From the NCBI RefSeq assembly GCF_022489035.1, contig NZ_JAKVTV010000003.1, forward strand, positions 496,001-560,000: a DNA stretch of 64,000 nt, read 5' to 3'. The position numbers were made by a program, and so were the translations under genes. The notes under the pieces are model-generated. The model had not been told where the DNA came from and made no database searches. It saw nothing but the letters and a program-made list of their open reading frames with translations. This document shows, in pieces, positions 16,804 through 24,570 of the stretch. How positions within the stretch are numbered: position 1 is the first letter of the stretch; every line of letters starts with the position of its first letter. The DNA is from Christiangramia lutea. GTDB lineage: Bacteria > Bacteroidota > Bacteroidia > Flavobacteriales > Flavobacteriaceae.

Positions 16804-16969
16804 TGTATGTTTTTTTTCAAATCTCTAATATCCTGCGAAAACTTCGAAGTAATTAAGAAAAGAATAACAATGTGAGGGTTCTGTTGAAACGATTCAATTA
16901 ACAAAAGTTTAGATAGTGTTGATTGGAGTAGTTTTCATATTCTGTACAAAAAGGTTTAATTTTAGATTT

Positions 16970-18100
16970 ATGAAGAGGAAGGAAGAAAAGGCAATTAGAG
17001 GTTTCATTTTCAATAAATATGATGCGCCGGAAGTTTCACCGTTCGATAAATTGTTTGAAATCTTTAAGGAATTGATCACTCATACCTCCGGAGATCTGGA
17101 GGAGGCTCTGGACTGGATGAAACAGCTCGATGAGGAGTATAAGCTTACCAACGATGATTATACGTTGGATGATTTCATTGAAGATCTTAAGAAAAAAGGT
17201 TATATACGTGAGGAAATAGACCAGGATGGAGGCGGTGGAATGGTGATTACTGCCAAGACAGAAAGAGCTATCAGGCAGCAGGCGCTCGAACAAATATTCG
17301 GAAAGCTCAAAAAAGGCTCAGCAGGAAATCACCGCACGAAACAAATTGGTCGTGGTGACGAGCACACTGGAGATTTCAGAGCTTACCAGTTTGGAGATAG
17401 TTTGAGCAGAATTTCAGTAACTGAAAGTTTGAAAAATGCCCAGATAAATCACGGAATAGGTGAGTTTTCGATGTCTGAAGCTGATCTTGTGGTAGAGGAG
17501 ACACACTATAAATCTCAAATGAGTACTGTGCTAATGATCGATATTAGCCATAGTATGATACTTTACGGGGAAGACAGAATCACTCCTGCAAAGAAAGTTG
17601 CCATGGCTCTTTCAGAATTGATAACAACGAGATATCCAAAAGACACGCTCGATATTCTAGTTTTCGGAAATGACGCCTGGCCTATTTCAATTTCAGAATT
17701 ACCTTATTTAAAAGTAGGGCCTTATCATACGAATACTGTAGCCGGTTTGGAACTTGCCATGGATCTTTTGCGCAGAAAAAGAAATACAAATAAACAGATT
17801 TTCATGATTACAGATGGGAAACCCAGCTGTGTAAGGGAAAGAGATGGGAGTTACTATAAAAATAGCATGGGACTCGATCCTTATATTGTAGATAAATGTT
17901 ACAATATGGCCAGGCAGGCCAGAAAACTACGTATCCCAATTACTACCTTCATGATCGCACAGGATCCCTATTTAACGAGGTTTGTACAGGAATTTACGAA
18001 GGCAAATCAGGGAAAGGCGTTTTATACAGGTTTAAAAGGACTTGGGGAAATGATCTTTGAAGACTATGAAATAAATCGTAAGAAAAGAATTAGAGGCTAA
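16970..18100 (+). CDS. vWA-domain protein, partner of the AAA+ ATPase
   Basis: 376 residues from the ATG at 16970 (a GTG at 16916 is in frame but gives an unrelated hydrophobic stub). The N-terminal part (1-180) is acidic and helical. From about residue 185 there is a von Willebrand A domain with a complete MIDAS: DISHS (D191), a Thr in the middle loop and ITDGKPS. This is the pattern of the ChlD/BchD-like and CoxE-like vWA partners of MoxR/ChlI AAA+ ATPases. No signal peptide, so cytoplasmic. The AAA+ gene starts ten bases after its stop. Such pairs insert metals or remodel protein complexes, but the client is unknown; no chelatase or cobalamin gene lies nearby. Confidence 0.82.
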   Translation: MKRKEEKAIRGFIFNKYDAPEVSPFDKLFEIFKELITHTSGDLEEALDWMKQLDEEYKLTNDDYTLDDFIEDLKKKGYIREEIDQDGGGGMVITAKTERAIRQQALEQIFGKLKKGSAGNHRTKQIGRGDEHTGDFRAYQFGDSLSRISVTESLKNAQINHGIGEFSMSEADLVVEETHYKSQMSTVLMIDISHSMILYGEDRITPAKKVAMALSELITTRYPKDTLDILVFGNDAWPISISELPYLKVGPYHTNTVAGLELAMDLLRRKRNTNKQIFMITDGKPSCVRERDGSYYKNSMGLDPYIVDKCYNMARQARKLRIPITTFMIAQDPYLTRFVQEFTKANQGKAFYTGLKGLGEMIFEDYEINRKKRIRG

Positions 18101-18110
18101 GAAAAAGAAT

Positions 18111-19574
18111 ATGAATAAAGACAACATTAAAACCCTAGGAGAACTTAAAAAAGCAGGTTATCAGTCGAAAGGTATCAAGGATGAACTTCGGGATAACCTG
18201 AAGCATAAGATTCGCAATGGGGAAAAGGCTTTTGAAGGAATTCATGGCTATGAATACACCGTAATTCCAGAATTGGAACGAGCAATACTTTCTCGACACA
18301 ATATTAATTTACTCGGTCTTCGGGGGCAAGCGAAGACCAGGCTTGCCAGGCTTATGGTCAACTTGTTGGATGAATGGATTCCAGCCATTGAAGGTTCAGA
18401 AATTAATGATGATCCTTTAAGACCCATAAGCAGGTTCGCTAAAGACCTTATTAATGAAAAGGGTGATGAAACCCCTGTCTCATGGATCCATCGAGACGAG
18501 CGTTTTTTTGAAAAGCTAGCTACCCCAGATGTAACCGTAGCCGACCTTATTGGAGATGTAGATCCTATAAAGGCTGCAAACTTACGTTTAAGTTATGCAG
18601 ATGATCGCGTGATACATTTTGGGATGATCCCTCGTGCAAACAGAAGTATTTTTGTGATCAATGAATTACCAGACCTGCAGGCAAGGATACAGGTAGCACT
18701 TTTCAATATTTTACAGGAAGGTGATATTCAAATTAGAGGATTCAAGTTAAGGCTGCCTTTAGATATGCAGTTTGTTTTCACGGCGAATCCTGAAGATTAT
18801 ACAAATCGAGGAAGTATAGTTACTCCATTAAAAGATCGTATCGGTTCACAAATTCTAACCCATTATCCTGAAAACATTGAGGTTGCCAAAATTATAACCT
18901 CACAGGAGGCACAGTTAGACCAAAGACAGAAAGAGTTAGTTCATGTTCCAGAGATTGCAAAAGATCTTCTCGAGCAAATTAGTTTTGAGGCAAGAGATAG
19001 TGAATTCATAGATCATAAGAGTGGAGTTAGTGCCAGAATGAGCATTACCGCTTTTGAAAACCTGTTGAGTACAGCTGAAAGAAGGGCCATTAAAAATGGA
19101 GAAGTGGAGACCTTGCTGAGATTTGGAGATTTTCTAGGGGTGATCCCTTCGATAACCGGAAAGGTAGAACTTGTTTATGAAGGCGAACAGGAAGGAGCAG
19201 CCTTTGTTGCCCTTCAGTTGATTGGAAATGCAGTGAAAACACTTTTCCCTAATTATTTTCCGAAAATCGAGAAGTTACAGAAACCAGATGAAAAAACACC
19301 ATTTGATGATCTGGTAGAGTGGTTTTTTGAAGGCTCCGGATTTGAGCTTCCAGATGATCTTCCTGAAGCCGAATACAAGGATAAACTTGATTCAATAGAA
19401 CCACTTAATAAATTGATTGAAAAATATCAGCCAGATCTGAAACCAGAAGATCGATATTTTGTTAAGGAATTTTTGCTTTGGGCCTTGGTAGAGCACAAAA
19501 AGTTGAGTAAACAGAGATTTTCGAAAGGACTTAGGTTTAAAGACCTTTATGGTAGTTATATAAGCGGTCTATAA
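18111..19574 (+). CDS. AAA+ ATPase of the Mg-chelatase (ChlI/BchI)-like family
   Basis: 487 residues. Walker A is LLGLRGQAKTRLARLM (about residues 64-79, G-x4-GKT type with A before KT), the Walker B region is SIFVINELPDLQ, and sensor 1 is VFTANPEDY. The insertions match the ChlI/BchI and related MoxR-clade family often annotated as magnesium chelatase in bacteria without chlorophyll. The tail (about 400-487) is acidic, with DLVEWFFEGSGFELPDDLPE. It forms an operon with the vWA gene, and together they probably make a two-component remodelling machine. A terminator at 19599-19632 closes the operon. Not a sigma-54 activator: no GAFTGA loop is seen. Confidence 0.85.
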   Translation: MNKDNIKTLGELKKAGYQSKGIKDELRDNLKHKIRNGEKAFEGIHGYEYTVIPELERAILSRHNINLLGLRGQAKTRLARLMVNLLDEWIPAIEGSEINDDPLRPISRFAKDLINEKGDETPVSWIHRDERFFEKLATPDVTVADLIGDVDPIKAANLRLSYADDRVIHFGMIPRANRSIFVINELPDLQARIQVALFNILQEGDIQIRGFKLRLPLDMQFVFTANPEDYTNRGSIVTPLKDRIGSQILTHYPENIEVAKIITSQEAQLDQRQKELVHVPEIAKDLLEQISFEARDSEFIDHKSGVSARMSITAFENLLSTAERRAIKNGEVETLLRFGDFLGVIPSITGKVELVYEGEQEGAAFVALQLIGNAVKTLFPNYFPKIEKLQKPDEKTPFDDLVEWFFEGSGFELPDDLPEAEYKDKLDSIEPLNKLIEKYQPDLKPEDRYFVKEFLLWALVEHKKLSKQRFSKGLRFKDLYGSYISGL

Positions 19575-19598
19575 ATTCTGATTTGTAAATTTTTAATT

Positions 19599-19632
19599 AA
19601 AAGCCTGATTCATTGATGATTCAGGCTTTTTT
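19599..19632 (+). terminator. Terminator of the vWA-AAA+ operon
   Basis: AAAAGCCTGA (19599-19608) pairs perfectly with TCAGGCTTTT (19621-19630), followed by more T. It separates the AAA+ gene from the threonine leader region. Confidence 0.88.
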
Positions 19633-19682
19633 ATTTGATAAAATATTAAAATGATAATTTTTAAAGAGAGAGAGATAAAAAA

Positions 19683-19713
19683 TTTTGCCAGTAAATTAAA
19701 TTGAATACCTTTA
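19683..19713 (+). promoter_or_regulatory. Candidate promoter of the threonine operon
   Basis: TTTTG (19683-19687) and TACCTTTA (19706-19713) are separated by 18 bases, close to the Bacteroidota -33 (TTTG) and -7 (TAnnTTTG) pattern with one mismatch in the last base. A start near 19720 would give a transcript with about 40 bases before the leader peptide. Confidence 0.4.
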
Positions 19714-19762
19714 AAAAACTTATCGGAGTAAAATCGTGAAGGAACTTCTACAAAATATTAAT

Positions 19763-19849
19763 ATGACAGCTGGGAAAATCTCTTTCCGAATGCTCACTCT
19801 TACTATCACGATTACCGGTATTACCCCTTTAGGGGTCCTTGCTATATAA
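19763..19849 (+). CDS. thrL: Threonine-operon leader peptide (28 or 19 residues)
   Basis: Not long enough for routine gene calling. From ATG 19763 it reads MTAGKISFR then, from the in-frame ATG at 19790, MLTLTITITGITPLGVLAI and stop TAA at 19847-19849. The alternating Thr/Ile run (five Thr and five Ile in 19 codons) is the hallmark of the E. coli thrL leader, where charged tRNA-Thr and tRNA-Ile are sensed by ribosome stalling. It ends 56 bases before thrA, has its own candidate promoter upstream and lies after the terminator of the preceding operon. Position, composition and orientation together make a chance match unlikely. Which ATG is used is not decided by the sequence. What differs from E. 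coli is that I see no strong terminator with a U-run between the peptide and thrA. Confidence 0.75.
   Translation: MTAGKISFRMLTLTITITGITPLGVLAI
19823..19836 (+). promoter_or_regulatory. Hairpin within the leader, candidate attenuation element
   Basis: ACCCC-TTTA-GGGGT is a perfect 5-bp GC-rich stem inside the 3' part of the leader-peptide frame. A ribosome stalled on the Thr/Ile codons just upstream would change whether it forms. There is no T-run directly after it, so it is not by itself an intrinsic terminator. A second possible long-range pairing is AATCGTGA (19732-19739) with TCACGATT (19806-19813). Confidence 0.4.
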
Positions 19850-19905
19850 TTTCCGTCCGTACCAGTATATCATATTTACTTTTTAATAATTAAATAATTT
19901 CAGCT

Positions 19906-22353
19906 ATGTACATCCTGAAATTTGGTGGTTCATCTTTAGCCACTCCTGAACGCGTTAAACTAGTCGCTAAAACTATACAGGAACATTTAAAAAAAGATGC
20001 AGTAATTTCTGTTTTTTCGGCCTTTGGCGGTGTAACCAATGATCTTTTACTTATGGCTGAACTCGCTGCAAGAGAGGATCTATCCTACAAAGAAATTCTT
20101 GAGAAAAATGAAAAAAGACATCTTGAAGCGGTTCGTGAACTTATACCGGTTACTGCCCAAAGCGGAATTCTAAGTCAGGTTAAAAATCAGTTCAACAGGT
20201 TGGAAACTCTTTATGAAGGCGTTTATTTGCTCAATGAGCTTTCAGATAAAACCAGGCATGTTGTCTCCGGCTTTGGTGAGATCTTAAGTTCATTAATTAT
20301 CGCTGAATACTTTAAGAGCCTGGGACTGGACAGTCTGTTCACCGATACTCGTGAGCTTATAGTCTGCAAAAACAATAATGAAAAGGTATTGGTGAATTAT
20401 CAAGCGACTAACAGGAATATAACAGAATTTTTTTCTGAAAATAAAGCAGATTTCTATATCGTTCCGGGCTTTGTTGCGAAGAATGATCATGGTGTTCCAA
20501 GTACTTTGGGTCGTGGGGGATCAGACTTTACGGCGGCTATTATCGCAGGAGCCCTGGACCTGGACAAGGTTCTTATTTATACCGATGTAAATGGTATGTT
20601 CACGGCCAATCCTAACCTGGTACCTCAAGCTTACTCCTTGAAAAATATTTCATACGAAGAGGCCATGGAACTTTCACATTTTGGAGCAAAGGTCCTTTAT
20701 CCGCCAACATTGCAACCTCTCCTGGATAAAAATATCGAGATCCATATTAGAAATACCTTTGAACCTGATCATCCGGGAACGGTGATATCAAAGTCGAGTA
20801 AGAAGAATTTCCGATGGGTTACCGGAATTACTCATATAGATGCGATAAAACTGCTCAATATCGAGGGGAGTGGCATGGTTGGAATTCCTGGTTTCTCTAA
20901 ACGATTTTTCGAGATCCTTTTTCAGGAACATATAAATGTGGTCCTTATCACCCAGGCTTCTTCTGAACATAGTATTTGTATTGCGGTGAAGGCAGATGAA
21001 GCCGAAAAAGCCAAAGAAGCTCTTGATGAAGCCTTTGAAGCAGAGATCGCATTTAAAAAGATCAAACCTGTAGAGATTGAAGAGAATGTATCGATTGTCG
21101 CACTGGTTGGGGATAGAATGAAAAGCCACCATGGTTTAAGTGGAAAAATGTTTAGTGCTCTTGGGAATAATAACATCAATATTAGAGCTATTGCGCAGGG
21201 TTCTTCTGAAAGGAATATATCTGCAGTTATAGCCAAAAAAGATGTAACAAAAGCTCTTAATACGCTTCACGAGCAATTTTTCGAGGTGCCTTCTAAAGAA
21301 TTAAATCTTTTTATTACCGGAGTTGGTAATGTTGGAAGCAAATTGCTTGACCAGCTTAAGAAACAGGAAAACTATTTACTTGAAAAATTAAGGCTGAAAG
21401 TAAGGGTGCTTGCAGTTTCTAATTCAAGAAAAATGTATTTTGATGAGGATGGAATTGATCTAGAAAACTGGGAGAAAGCACTAATTGAAGGCGAAACAGC
21501 AGATAAAAAAGAGTTTTTCAAAAGGGTAAAAGAGTTTAACCTGCGCAACAGTATTTTCGTAGATAATACGGCAAGTTCAGAAATCTCAAACTGGTATAAG
21601 GAGTATCTGGCAAATTCGATCTCGGTGGTCACCTGTAACAAGATCGCCTGTGCAGATGCTTATGAAAACTATGCAAATCTTCAGAACCTCGCCCGGGAAT
21701 ACGGAGCGTCATTTTTATATGAAACAAATGTTGGGGCCGGTTTGCCAATAATTGATACACTTCAGAATCTAATTGCATCTGGTGACCAGATAAGGAAGAT
21801 CCAGGCGGTACTTTCAGGCAGTTTGAATTTTGTATTCAATAATTACGATGCTTCATCACCATTTTATAAAGTGGTGGAAACAGCAATGAAAGAAGGGTAT
21901 ACAGAGCCAGACCCTAAGATTGACTTAAGCGGAGTGGATGTGGCAAGAAAAATTCTTATTCTGGCAAGGGAAAGCGGACTGGAACTTGAGCTGGAGGATA
22001 TTGAAAGAGATAATTTCCTTTCTGAGGAGAGTTTGAATTCAGAAACCAATGAGAAATTTTTTGAATTGCTGGAAAAAGGTGAATCAGAGTTTAAAAAGAT
22101 GTATGAAGATGCTGCTTCTAGTGATTCAGAATTGAAATATGTCGCCCAGCTAGAGAACGGAAAGGCTAAAGTTGGGCTGCAAAAAGTAGGTGAGCAGCAT
22201 CCTTTCGCTAATCTTAGCGGTAGTGACAATATCGTGTTGTTCTTTACAGACCGATATCCGGAACAGCCATTGATCGTAAAAGGAGCCGGGGCTGGTGCCG
22301 ATGTAACTGCTTCAGGAATATTTGCAGATATCATAAGGATAGGAAAGAAATGA
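19906..22353 (+). CDS. thrA: Bifunctional aspartokinase / homoserine dehydrogenase
   Basis: 815 residues, the standard length of ThrA/MetL fusions. Aspartokinase domain from the N-terminus (MYILKFGGSSLA, then the conserved GRGGSDFTAAIIAGAL and FGAKVLYPPT), regulatory ACT domains about 320-460 (GMVGIPGFSKRFFEILFQEH; NINIRAIAQGSSERNISAVI), then homoserine dehydrogenase from about 465 with the NAD(P) loop ITGVGNVGSKLL, TCNKIA, NVGAGLP and GYTEPDPKIDLSGVDVARK. It catalyses the first and third steps from aspartate to threonine, methionine and isoleucine. The ACT pair suggests feedback by threonine, and the leader peptide upstream suggests transcriptional or translational control by Thr/Ile supply. 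thrB follows after four bases. Confidence 0.97.
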   Translation: MYILKFGGSSLATPERVKLVAKTIQEHLKKDAVISVFSAFGGVTNDLLLMAELAAREDLSYKEILEKNEKRHLEAVRELIPVTAQSGILSQVKNQFNRLETLYEGVYLLNELSDKTRHVVSGFGEILSSLIIAEYFKSLGLDSLFTDTRELIVCKNNNEKVLVNYQATNRNITEFFSENKADFYIVPGFVAKNDHGVPSTLGRGGSDFTAAIIAGALDLDKVLIYTDVNGMFTANPNLVPQAYSLKNISYEEAMELSHFGAKVLYPPTLQPLLDKNIEIHIRNTFEPDHPGTVISKSSKKNFRWVTGITHIDAIKLLNIEGSGMVGIPGFSKRFFEILFQEHINVVLITQASSEHSICIAVKADEAEKAKEALDEAFEAEIAFKKIKPVEIEENVSIVALVGDRMKSHHGLSGKMFSALGNNNINIRAIAQGSSERNISAVIAKKDVTKALNTLHEQFFEVPSKELNLFITGVGNVGSKLLDQLKKQENYLLEKLRLKVRVLAVSNSRKMYFDEDGIDLENWEKALIEGETADKKEFFKRVKEFNLRNSIFVDNTASSEISNWYKEYLANSISVVTCNKIACADAYENYANLQNLAREYGASFLYETNVGAGLPIIDTLQNLIASGDQIRKIQAVLSGSLNFVFNNYDASSPFYKVVETAMKEGYTEPDPKIDLSGVDVARKILILARESGLELELEDIERDNFLSEESLNSETNEKFFELLEKGESEFKKMYEDAASSDSELKYVAQLENGKAKVGLQKVGEQHPFANLSGSDNIVLFFTDRYPEQPLIVKGAGAGADVTASGIFADIIRIGKK

Positions 22354-22357
22354 AATT

Positions 22358-23278
22358 ATGGAAGAATTAAAGGTTTTTGCGCCGGCAACCGTAGCCAACT
22401 TATCCTGCGGATTTGATGTTCTGGGATGTTGTCTCGATTCTGTGGGCGATGAAATGTTGGTGAGGAGAAACGATCTGGATCAGATTAGGATCACCAGGAT
22501 TACAGGTCAGGATCTGCCTTTGGAAGCCGATAAGAATGTAGCGGGTGTGGCAGTAAATGCCCTTTTGCAGAAATTGGGTTCAAACCAGGGATTTGATATC
22601 GAAATAATCAAAAAAATAAAACCGGGTAGTGGAATAGGAAGCAGCGCGGCCAGTTCTGCAGGTGCTGTATTTGCTGTAAATAAACTGCTGGGCGAGCCTT
22701 TTGACAAATTGGACTTAATTTCGTTCGCCATGCAGGGAGAATTGCTGGCCAGTGGAAATGCGCATGCAGATAATGTTGCTCCGGCAATTCTTGGAGGTTT
22801 CAGCCTGGTTAGAAGTTACTGTCCGCTTGAAGTTTTGAGTTTACCGGTACCTTCAGAATTAAGGATGGTAGTATTACATCCGCTAATTGAAATTAAAACC
22901 AAAGATTCAAGGTCTATTATCAGGCAAAATGTAAGTCTGCAGAAAGCTATCAGCCAGTGGGGAAATCTTGGTGCCTTAGTGAGTGCCTTATACACTGAGG
23001 ATTATGGACTATTGGGCCGAAGTCTGAAGGATGAGATAGTAGAGCCAGTAAGGTCAATTTTAATTCCCTATTTCCAGGAACTTAGAGAACTTGTTTCTGA
23101 GAAAGGAGCATTAGGTTTTGGCATTTCTGGATCGGGACCTTCGGTTTATGCTTTATGCAAAGGCGATGCGAATGCTGAACTTGTAAAAGAAGAGATACAA
23201 AGGTTTTATTCTGATAAGAATATTGCTTTTGAATTACATCTATCATCTATAAATGAAAAAGGAGTTAAAGTCTTATGA
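22358..23278 (+). CDS. thrB: Homoserine kinase
   Basis: 306 residues, a GHMP-family kinase of normal length. The N-terminus has VFAPATVANLSCGFDVLG, the ATP-binding loop is PGSGIGSSAASSAGAV (about 90-105) and the C-terminal glycine-rich motif is GFGISGSGPSVYAL. It phosphorylates homoserine using ATP, giving the substrate for threonine synthase. It overlaps thrC by four bases (ATGA), so the two are translationally coupled. Cytoplasmic. Confidence 0.96.
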   Translation: MEELKVFAPATVANLSCGFDVLGCCLDSVGDEMLVRRNDLDQIRITRITGQDLPLEADKNVAGVAVNALLQKLGSNQGFDIEIIKKIKPGSGIGSSAASSAGAVFAVNKLLGEPFDKLDLISFAMQGELLASGNAHADNVAPAILGGFSLVRSYCPLEVLSLPVPSELRMVVLHPLIEIKTKDSRSIIRQNVSLQKAISQWGNLGALVSALYTEDYGLLGRSLKDEIVEPVRSILIPYFQELRELVSEKGALGFGISGSGPSVYALCKGDANAELVKEEIQRFYSDKNIAFELHLSSINEKGVKVL

Positions 23279-24570
23279 AATATTTCAGCCTGAATAATAA
23301 AGAACATCACAGCAATTTTGAAAATGCAGTGATCAGAGGCCTTGCACCCGATAAAGGGCTGTATTTTCCGGAAAGAATTGTAAAACTTCCAGATGGCTTT
23401 TTTAAAGAACTCAGTGAGTATGATAAGGTTGAAATCGCTTTTGAAGCCATTAAAGAATTTGTAGGGAAAGAAATCCCTGATGCAGATCTTCTAGATATCA
23501 TCAAAGAAACACTGGATTTTGATTTTCCAGTAGTACCTGTTAAAGCCAATACAGGTAGCCTCGAACTTTTCCATGGTCCAACACTGGCTTTTAAAGATGT
23601 GGGAGCAAGGTTCATGGCCGGAAGTCTGGGCTATTTCATACAAAAAGGTAGCTTAGGGAAGGTCACGGTTTTGGTGGCTACTTCTGGTGATACGGGGGGA
23701 GCGGTGGCAAATGGATTCCTGGGCCTAGATGGAATTGATGTAGTAATTCTCTATCCTAAAGGCAAGGTAAGTGAGATCCAGGAAAAACAACTAACTACAT
23801 TGGGGAAAAACATCACTGCTCTAGAAGTTGATGGTGTTTTCGATGATTGCCAGAGAATGGTAAAACAGGCGTTCCTGGATAGCGATATTACAGAAAAACG
23901 AAAACTTACTTCTGCGAATTCAATCAATGTAGCGAGGTGGCTACCTCAAATATTCTATTATTTTCTGGCCTATCGTCAACTGATGGAGAGGGAGATGAAA
24001 CTAGCCTTTTCTGTTCCCAGCGGTAATTTCGGGAATATATGTGCCGGTCTTCTGGCAAAGGAAATGGGTTTGCCTATAGATCATTTTATAGCAGCCAACA
24101 ATGCGAATGATACAGTTACCAACTATATCCAAACAGAAAATTATCAACCTAAACCCAGTATAGCCACTATTTCCAATGCTATGGATGTTGGAGACCCAAG
24201 TAATTTCGTTAGGATCCTGGAATTGTTTGAAAATGAATATTCATCTGTAAAGAATGTACTTTCCGCATATAGTTTTAATGATGAAATGACCAAAAAGGCT
24301 ATAAAGGATGTTCATTCTGAAATTGGTTATACAATGGATCCTCACGGCGCAGTTGGCTATTTAGGGCTTCAAAAATTTCTGGAAAAAAATCCGGAATATT
24401 ATGGAGTATTTCTTGAAACAGCCCACCCGGTAAAATTTCTCGATACAGTGGAAGAAGCAACAGGGGAGAAAGTGCAAATTCCAGTAGTGATAAAAGGCTT
24501 AATGGATAAGAAAAAGAAATCCCTCCAGATCAGTAATTATGAAGACCTGAAGGGATTTTTACTGAGCTGA
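23275..24570 (+). CDS. thrC: Threonine synthase
   Basis: 431 residues. PLP lysine K107 in GPTLAFKDVG, phosphate-binding VATSGDTGGAVANGF, and the SANSINVARWLPQIFYYF segment typical of the E. coli-type synthase. It converts O-phosphohomoserine to threonine. It is the last gene of the operon; the S10 peptidase gene on the other strand ends nine bases later, leaving no room for a clear terminator between them. Confidence 0.96.
   Translation: MKYFSLNNKEHHSNFENAVIRGLAPDKGLYFPERIVKLPDGFFKELSEYDKVEIAFEAIKEFVGKEIPDADLLDIIKETLDFDFPVVPVKANTGSLELFHGPTLAFKDVGARFMAGSLGYFIQKGSLGKVTVLVATSGDTGGAVANGFLGLDGIDVVILYPKGKVSEIQEKQLTTLGKNITALEVDGVFDDCQRMVKQAFLDSDITEKRKLTSANSINVARWLPQIFYYFLAYRQLMEREMKLAFSVPSGNFGNICAGLLAKEMGLPIDHFIAANNANDTVTNYIQTENYQPKPSIATISNAMDVGDPSNFVRILELFENEYSSVKNVLSAYSFNDEMTKKAIKDVHSEIGYTMDPHGAVGYLGLQKFLEKNPEYYGVFLETAHPVKFLDTVEEATGEKVQIPVVIKGLMDKKKKSLQISNYEDLKGFLLS

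Follow-up and report, generated by a model that had tools for sequence, protein, structure and literature searches.

The thrABC operon of Christiangramia lutea is preceded by a short reading frame rich in threonine and isoleucine codons, and the last Thr codon of its run opens a tight GC hairpin, here named H1. Comparison across the flavobacterial family indicates that the observation is genuine and not confined to the window, by which we mean the whole 64,000 nt stretch of DNA that was analysed. The shared layout before thrA, consisting of a Thr/Ile run, a tight H1 and a leader stop in or just after H1, was found in 98 of 110 genera; in the flavobacterial layout a YATAT motif is usual after H1, and a second hairpin is often seen. 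We infer the function and the mechanism of the thr leader from comparison only, and the thr control suggested here would be leader-peptide control without a classic terminator. The observation made in the initial annotation of this DNA was confirmed, and its interpretation is partly supported. The features of the locus are as follows.

19684..19713, + strand: candidate promoter, TTTG (19684-19687), 18 nt and TACCTTTA (19706-19713), as read from the sequence.
19736..19849, + strand: predicted leader peptide gene VKELLQNINMTAGKISFRMLTLTITITGITPLGVLAI, probable GTG start, 37 codons, stop TAA at 19847-19849.
19773..19787, + strand: hairpin H0, GGAAA-AUCUC-UUUCC, inside the leader and before the Thr/Ile run, present in the fold of the window.
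19796..19825, + strand: Thr/Ile codon run ACT CTT ACT ATC ACG ATT ACC GGT ATT ACC, from the sequence and the 98-locus comparison.
19823..19836, + strand: hairpin H1, ACCCC-UUUA-GGGGU, with the last Thr codon of the run as its first three bases.
19843..19859, + strand: motif after H1, TATATAATTTCCGTCCG (YATAT, then TCCGTCCG or a clade variant), overlapping the leader stop here.
19866..19882, + strand: place of hairpin H2, occupied in many relatives; the window has a very weak hairpin at most.
19906..22353, + strand: thrA, bifunctional aspartate kinase / homoserine dehydrogenase, 815 aa (NCBIfam NF006959, 1056.7 bits, cut-off 726; Pfam domains).
22358-23278, + strand: thrB, homoserine kinase (TIGR00191, 239.3 bits, cut-off 168.25).
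23275-24570, + strand: thrC, threonine synthase (TIGR00260, 296.4 bits, cut-off 167.1).

The probable target of the leader is thrA, with thrB and thrC as the rest of the operon. The initial annotation had placed a Thr/Ile frame at 19763..19849, 56 bases before thrA, after the terminator of the previous operon and behind a candidate promoter. The frame was borne out by the open reading and by the 98-locus comparison; 56 nt separate the end of the leader stop from the thrA start at 19906, and both flanking signals are seen in the sequence, the promoter candidate at 19684-19713 and, by reading, a strong terminator-like hairpin at about 19600-19633. This hairpin follows two genes (16916-18100 and 18111-19574) with a von Willebrand type A domain (PF13519) and an AAA domain (PF07728).

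For the comparison, a family-wide thrA search with one genome per genus matched 170 of 199 genomes, and the upstream DNA of the 110 best-scoring of these 170 was used, from 30 search loci and 80 fetched stretches, with the window's own among them. Among 80 named loci the closest, at 77-81% in thrA, were Salegentibacter, Gillisia and Gramella, which places the genome in their group. Since some genomes occur in both the family set and the named set, counts taken over the two together are not independent.

Over the 12 codons before H1 the leader frame holds on average 4.82 Thr and 2.17 Ile and no stop in any of the 98 loci; the other two frames have 0.06-0.20 Thr, and stop codons interrupt them in 41 and in 23 of the 98 loci. 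By this measure the Thr/Ile leader frame is beyond chance. All four Thr codons are used (ACA 146, ACC 157, ACT 138 and ACG 31 over the 98 loci), which indicates that the amino acid is kept and not one particular codon. Codons -7 to -5 are also Thr-rich (47, 59 and 53 of 98 loci).

The initial annotation had described a frame of 19 or 28 residues. An open frame is indeed present, with 28 codons at 19763-19849 (MTAGKISFRMLTLTITITGITPLGVLAI), but the leader probably starts at GTG 19736 rather than at ATG 19763 or 19790. GTG 19736 is in frame and downstream of GGAG (19725-19728). This start leaves 30 codons before H1 and lies 22 nt after the TAnnTTTA box, and in relatives the leader has a median of 31 codons before the hairpin (5th-95th percentile 24-33) and a median box-to-start distance of 19 nt (5-23), both over the 88 loci with a TAnnTTTG box plus an in-frame start after it. 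ATG 19763 would give 49 nt from the box and 21 codons before the hairpin, and both ATG candidates seem less likely since length and box spacing fall outside the values of most relatives. In relatives the start was defined as the first in-frame ATG after the box, a rule that alone would yield ATG 19763 in the window; the choice of GTG 19736 thus follows from leader length and box spacing and not from the first-ATG rule. The TACCTTTA box is a variant of the Bacteroidota TAnnTTTG -7 box, part of the -33/-7 promoter consensus as quoted in the accessible text of PMC7366714. Of the 98 loci, 89 have the exact TAnnTTTG upstream of the leader, as compared to 13% of shuffles; the window's locus and 8 others are without it.

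H1 was defined as a C3-5/G3-5 hairpin before thrA and in frame with a Thr/Ile-rich stretch, and the count of 98 in 110 flavobacterial genera includes L033, L038, L051 and L108, after inspection of which the permitted distance was widened. In the other 12 genera no H1 was found within the distance searched, and their Thr/Ile windows reach 3-7 of 12 codons at best; one of them (L100) has a similar frame further upstream. The codon opening the stem is Thr in 98/98 loci, and in equally many the leader stop lies inside H1 or at most 15 nt after it. The residues encoded by H1 vary (PLG, LWG, LLG, RLG and PFG among the examples) while the bases are largely kept, which argues that H1 is held as nucleic acid. 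CAACCC/GGGTTG and TACCCC/GGGGTA are frequent stems, and variants changed on both sides were found as ATCCGC/GCGGAT (L262), TCCGC/GCGGA (L267), CCCTC/GAGGG (L264), GCACCC/GGGTGC (L266) and ACGGG/CCCGT (L190), with loop lengths of 2-6 across loci. The comparison of relatives that the initial annotation proposed gave a positive answer, the Thr/Ile run and hairpin being kept in 98 of the 110 genera and stems being compensatory elsewhere, in some Chitinophagaceae. H1 after a Thr/Ile run was also seen in Chitinophagaceae, Ferruginibacter, Fulvivirga, Flammeovirgaceae, Chryseobacterium and Balneolaceae records.

A wider finder located the hairpin in 151 of 211 loci. This finder accepts only stems with four or more Watson-Crick pairs and frames with four or more Thr/Ile in nine codons, and it gives preference to long stems. 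The inner pairs and the Thr/Ile content that it reports are therefore no evidence, and there is some bias towards outer pairs. Counting outwards from the loop in 148 distinct hairpins, the sixth pair, which the finder favours without requiring it, was Watson-Crick in 51% of cases against 31% +- 3% with shuffled partners, and pair 5 in 78% against 68%. Pair 7 showed no excess over shuffled partners and pair 8 fell below them in the same set, so the stem ends at six pairs. The GC hairpin that the initial annotation saw inside the leader frame is not incidental; judged by its conservation, H1 is the best conserved part of a wider element. The stability of the whole leader fold in the window is not unusual compared to shuffles (z -0.38), and the conserved structure is the local hairpin, not the leader fold as a whole.

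Two loci upstream of thrA, L187 and L190, have another hairpin after the Thr run, CGGG-GTAA-CCCG and ACGGG-GTGA-CCCGT, and in both the leader stop codon sits in the loop of the hairpin.

YATAT was found at most 26 nt from the stem end in 122 of 151 hairpins, as compared to 15% of shuffled sequences. It starts most often 5-11 nt past the stem and is followed, depending on the clade, by TCCGTCCG, TTCTTCAGGC or GGGC in the alignments. On the other side of the Thr/Ile run, hairpins at the H0 position gave 12.28 against 9.11 for codon-shuffled leaders (98 loci), and 14.14 against 8.92 in the GGGTT group (48 loci). The run between H0 and H1 has about the length that we take to be one ribosome footprint, which is no more than suggestive.

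In the region of H2, 55 of 98 loci and 27 of 196 shuffles have a hairpin of -3 kcal/mol or better, and hairpins of -2 or better start 26-33 nt after H1 in 58/67 against 17/60 in shuffles. Counting any hairpin at all, 77/98 loci are little above the chance level of 121/196, and with a median of -3.5 kcal/mol over 77 loci H2 is weak. Its arms co-vary in one clade (TGTAAT/ATTACA, TGTGAT/ATCACA, GCGAT/ATCGC). The consensus fold of one clade's leaders returned H1 only, and in a G-test an H2 pair ranked top alongside many non-pairing columns. No antiterminator pairing was detected, as the H2 arms paired with their own and with swapped leaders to a similar degree (12.66 vs 12.50 and 10.88 vs 11.29, 67 loci). 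The motif showed a small excess of pairing with the leader (14.29 vs 13.55, P 0.004), in part explained by a GGAC/GTCC word in 9 of 25 GTCC loci. GGAC early in the leader and GTCC after H1 occur both in 9 loci, GTCC only in 16, GGAC only in 6 and neither in 67, giving a Fisher P of 0.002 that ignores shared ancestry; the window is without this word pair. GGAC near the leader start, complementary to GTCC after H1, was observed in L015, L024, L025, L028, L034, L042 and L046, and a long-range GGAC/GTCC helix is possible in one clade. Masking of the thrA start, which the initial annotation had offered as one way of control, found no support. In the fold of the window CAGCU just before the thrA ATG pairs with AGCUG, but this fold is no better than those of shuffles, and pairing of the thrA start region was the same with own and swapped leaders (13.95 vs 13.93, 98 loci).

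No U-run terminator had been visible to the initial annotation, and the scans agree. A strict scan for intrinsic terminators (5 or more base pairs in the stem, 3 or more of them GC, a T-rich tail and an energy of -6 kcal/mol or better) marked 1/98 thr leaders against 1/490 shuffles and none at the window's locus, which speaks against classic attenuation. The sole mark, in L003, is H1 plus TTTTGTAT. As a positive control, the same scan found a terminator after a His-rich frame in 30/30 family hisG loci (hisG was found in 33 of 41 genomes, and 30 loci were supplied). Among the 80 named loci two were marked (L261 and L270). A relaxed scan marked 16/98 thr leaders against 19/294 shuffles, the window not being among them, and 14/55 named loci with H1. 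Some of these marks come from an H1 or H2 that a T-rich tail follows, which leaves weak termination possible in some lineages.

The his, ilv and phe leaders of the same genome all carry terminators: hisG (L205, G000:C12; MRKNTVHHHHFYIHAQAR; -16.6 kcal/mol), ilvD (L206, G000:C23; MITAIQNIIVSIIEVIFIIENRP; -13.1 kcal/mol) and pheA (L207, G000:C1; MTSLINWNAFYYFYFYTRDRIGNAI; -14.5 kcal/mol) are classic attenuators with amino-acid-rich leaders. Since these leaders have terminators, the comparison indicates that the missing terminator is a property of this thr leader kind and not of family leaders generally; together with the strict-scan contrast between thr and his, this points to thr control without a classic terminator. 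A scan of 21 other thrA loci gave three from other Bacteroidota, L194, L196 and L197, with a Thr leader and a full terminator (-20.3, -21.2 and -15.7 kcal/mol), while L198 has an H1-type thr leader with a weak terminator (-7.8) and L195 a hairpin without a Thr leader. By eye, L194 and L197 contain a purine-rich GGAGGAA-type stretch complementary to the terminator arm.

Further we searched for the element with models. In the window's own genome model R1 gave the thr locus at E 1.6e-4 and its next match at 0.478. Class-wide, R1 matched 97/295 genomes at E up to 0.5, and thrA follows at only 7 of the 30 loci inspected, the window's own among them; as a non-thr match (L155) reached 3.5e-4, weak R1 matches are put down to chance. 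The idea that the element also stands ahead of other operons was rejected on these grounds. For the broader model R2 only thr leaders were used; at E up to 0.03 it missed the window's own genome and matched 43/392 genomes phylum-wide in 13 genera, a count that says little about absence given the strict filters and E threshold. The initial annotation had proposed a search with a new covariance model; 29 of the best 30 of 44 listed R2 loci precede a thrA-like start (KFGG), the exception among those 30 being L340, with another gene next. The Rfam Thr_leader search that it also proposed came out negative. RF00506 gave no match at the leader with E up to 10 in 19300-20200, where weak matches of 18.5 and 15.1 bits (cut-off 55) lie over the previous operon's terminator, and no Rfam family matched at gathering cut-offs in 17 relatives (sets of 7 and 10) or gave a notable match at the window's leader.

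Control of thrA in response to Thr and Ile is very probable. The full explanation, a Thr (and Ile) sensing leader peptide that controls thrABC without an intrinsic terminator and in the manner set out next, has in our judgement an even chance of being right. A shortage of charged Thr- or Ile-tRNA would make the ribosome stall at the final codons of the run, where its footprint would keep H1 from forming. When Thr and Ile are plentiful, the ribosome would reach the stop beside H1 and leave; H1 could then form behind RNA polymerase and hold it at or near YATAT, where transcription would be aborted, perhaps by Rho loading on the ribosome-free leader. Given the position of the stop, a ribosome that completes the leader would come to rest on H1 or beside it, and one stalled on the last Thr codons would cover it. 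This favours ribosome masking, and we lean slightly towards H1 being the masked part. A stall on the Thr-rich codons -7 to -5 would leave H1 free, so that masking holds for the last codons only. As neither a terminator nor an alternative partner for H2 was found, a classic switch between two structures is without support. Polymerase pausing at the YATAT motif is given a little less than even weight, and the motif is at odds with what we take to be the E. coli pause consensus.

Rho as the executor is a more tentative element of the proposal. The genome has a Rho-domain gene (PF07497, 121.6 bits), and C exceeds G in 95/98 thr leaders (0.210 vs 0.113) and in 97/98 spacers. The his leaders share this skew (0.185 vs 0.123, 28/30), so it is no special mark of Rho. 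The most far-reaching reading is a thr-specific attenuation over much of the phylum, in which masking of a pause hairpin (H1 with YATAT) by the ribosome takes the place of the terminator/antiterminator switch, Rho or another factor terminates, and the RNA class is absent from Rfam; to this we assign somewhat less than an even chance.

The main rival is control of thrA translation or mRNA stability, where leader ribosomes would alter folding or RNase access. The lack of a terminator and the excess of H0, H1 and H2 over controls would fit this as well, as would the CAGCU/AGCUG pairing in the window. We regard it as unlikely, its weight being reduced by the leader-pairing results given above; in addition, thrA starts about 67-124 nt after H1 (5th-95th percentile). 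Somewhat less likely again is classic attenuation by a weak terminator, with H2 or H1 and a T-rich stretch acting as the terminator unless a ribosome stalls. Hairpins immediately followed by a T-rich tail do occur, as H2 in L009, L072, L076 and Kordia L214 and as H1 in L003 and L261, and the relaxed-scan excess, the full terminators of L194, L196 and L197 and the weak one of the H1-type L198 point the same way. Against it stand the strict scan, which separates thr from his leaders almost completely, and the weakness of H2, which is barely present in the window and has arms without an alternative partner.

H1 and the motif might also be a DNA site for a thrA repressor or activator, the leader frame being secondary. 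H1 is near-palindromic in DNA and its sequence is kept within the family, but the variable loop length, the compensatory stem changes, the fixed reading frame and Thr codon and a position downstream of the promoter box make this very improbable. The exact H1 word occurs once in the genome, and H1 was rejected as a genome-wide DNA site, as up to two mismatches gave 41 matches against 74 for a reversed control. An unexpressed intergenic frame arising by chance, for which its shortness might speak, is contradicted by its conservation in 98 genera with frame-specific codon bias and in other families too, and its probability is close to nil.

In textbook leader attenuation the off state is an intrinsic terminator; here his keeps it and thr is without it, so thr and his leaders (also ilv and phe) form a natural comparison inside one genome. 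The thr leader would make it testable how a leader ribosome could control polymerase without a terminator. It also provides a new RNA element for searches and a small leader gene that may be overlooked in annotation. Bacteroidota ribosomes make little use of Shine-Dalgarno pairing, and to our knowledge the regulatory RNAs of this phylum have been little studied.

Attenuation by flavobacterial leaders has already been hinted at in print, in the text available to us. PMC9723704 sees 'strong clues' that leader peptides control amino-acid operons by attenuation in Flavobacterium psychrophilum, of the same family, and names 5' elements of pheA, hisG and others that are kept in other genera; its main text contains 'thrA' and 'threonine' 0 times. 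In their accessible text, PMC7366714 mentions leader-like sORFs in Bacteroides, PMC4833913 treats leader genes that lie close to structural genes, also in Bacteroidetes, without mention of thrA, PMC2965389 has no word starting with 'bacteroid' or 'flavobacter', and PMC6336406 gives background on pause hairpins. The thr element itself is described in none of the literature matches listed, which cover openly accessible papers; earlier comparisons of attenuation may have appeared in subscription papers.

Compared to an erm-type translation attenuator, the thr leader differs in that no conserved helix over the thrA start was found in the 98 loci. At the his pause a short GC hairpin stands about 11 nt upstream of the RNA 3' end, at a conserved sequence. 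YATAT starts most often 5-11 nt after the stem here, and a pause of this type is a candidate at the thr leader. Rho-coupled leader control is known from tnaC, where the signal is free tryptophan. With the toiL uORF of E. coli topAI, whether a short frame upstream is translated determines premature termination by Rho (PMC12121999, text as available), a role for which Rho is a candidate here; the toiL signal is an antibiotic, while the proposed signal here is codon starvation. The Thr/Ile leaders before thrA in L194, L196 and L197, from the same class, are alike in their codons and differ by their terminators, as do the his, ilv and phe attenuators of the same genome, which likewise repeat the codons of their pathway amino acids. 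Unlike E. coli thrL (RF00506), the leader has no intrinsic terminator or antiterminator that we could find and no RF00506 match. The likeness to thrL in composition and place claimed in the initial annotation nevertheless stands and is conserved in relatives: both have a short leader gene with a run of Thr and Ile codons ahead of thrA, and in E. coli thrL, as in this leader, a small hairpin is located at the end of that run.
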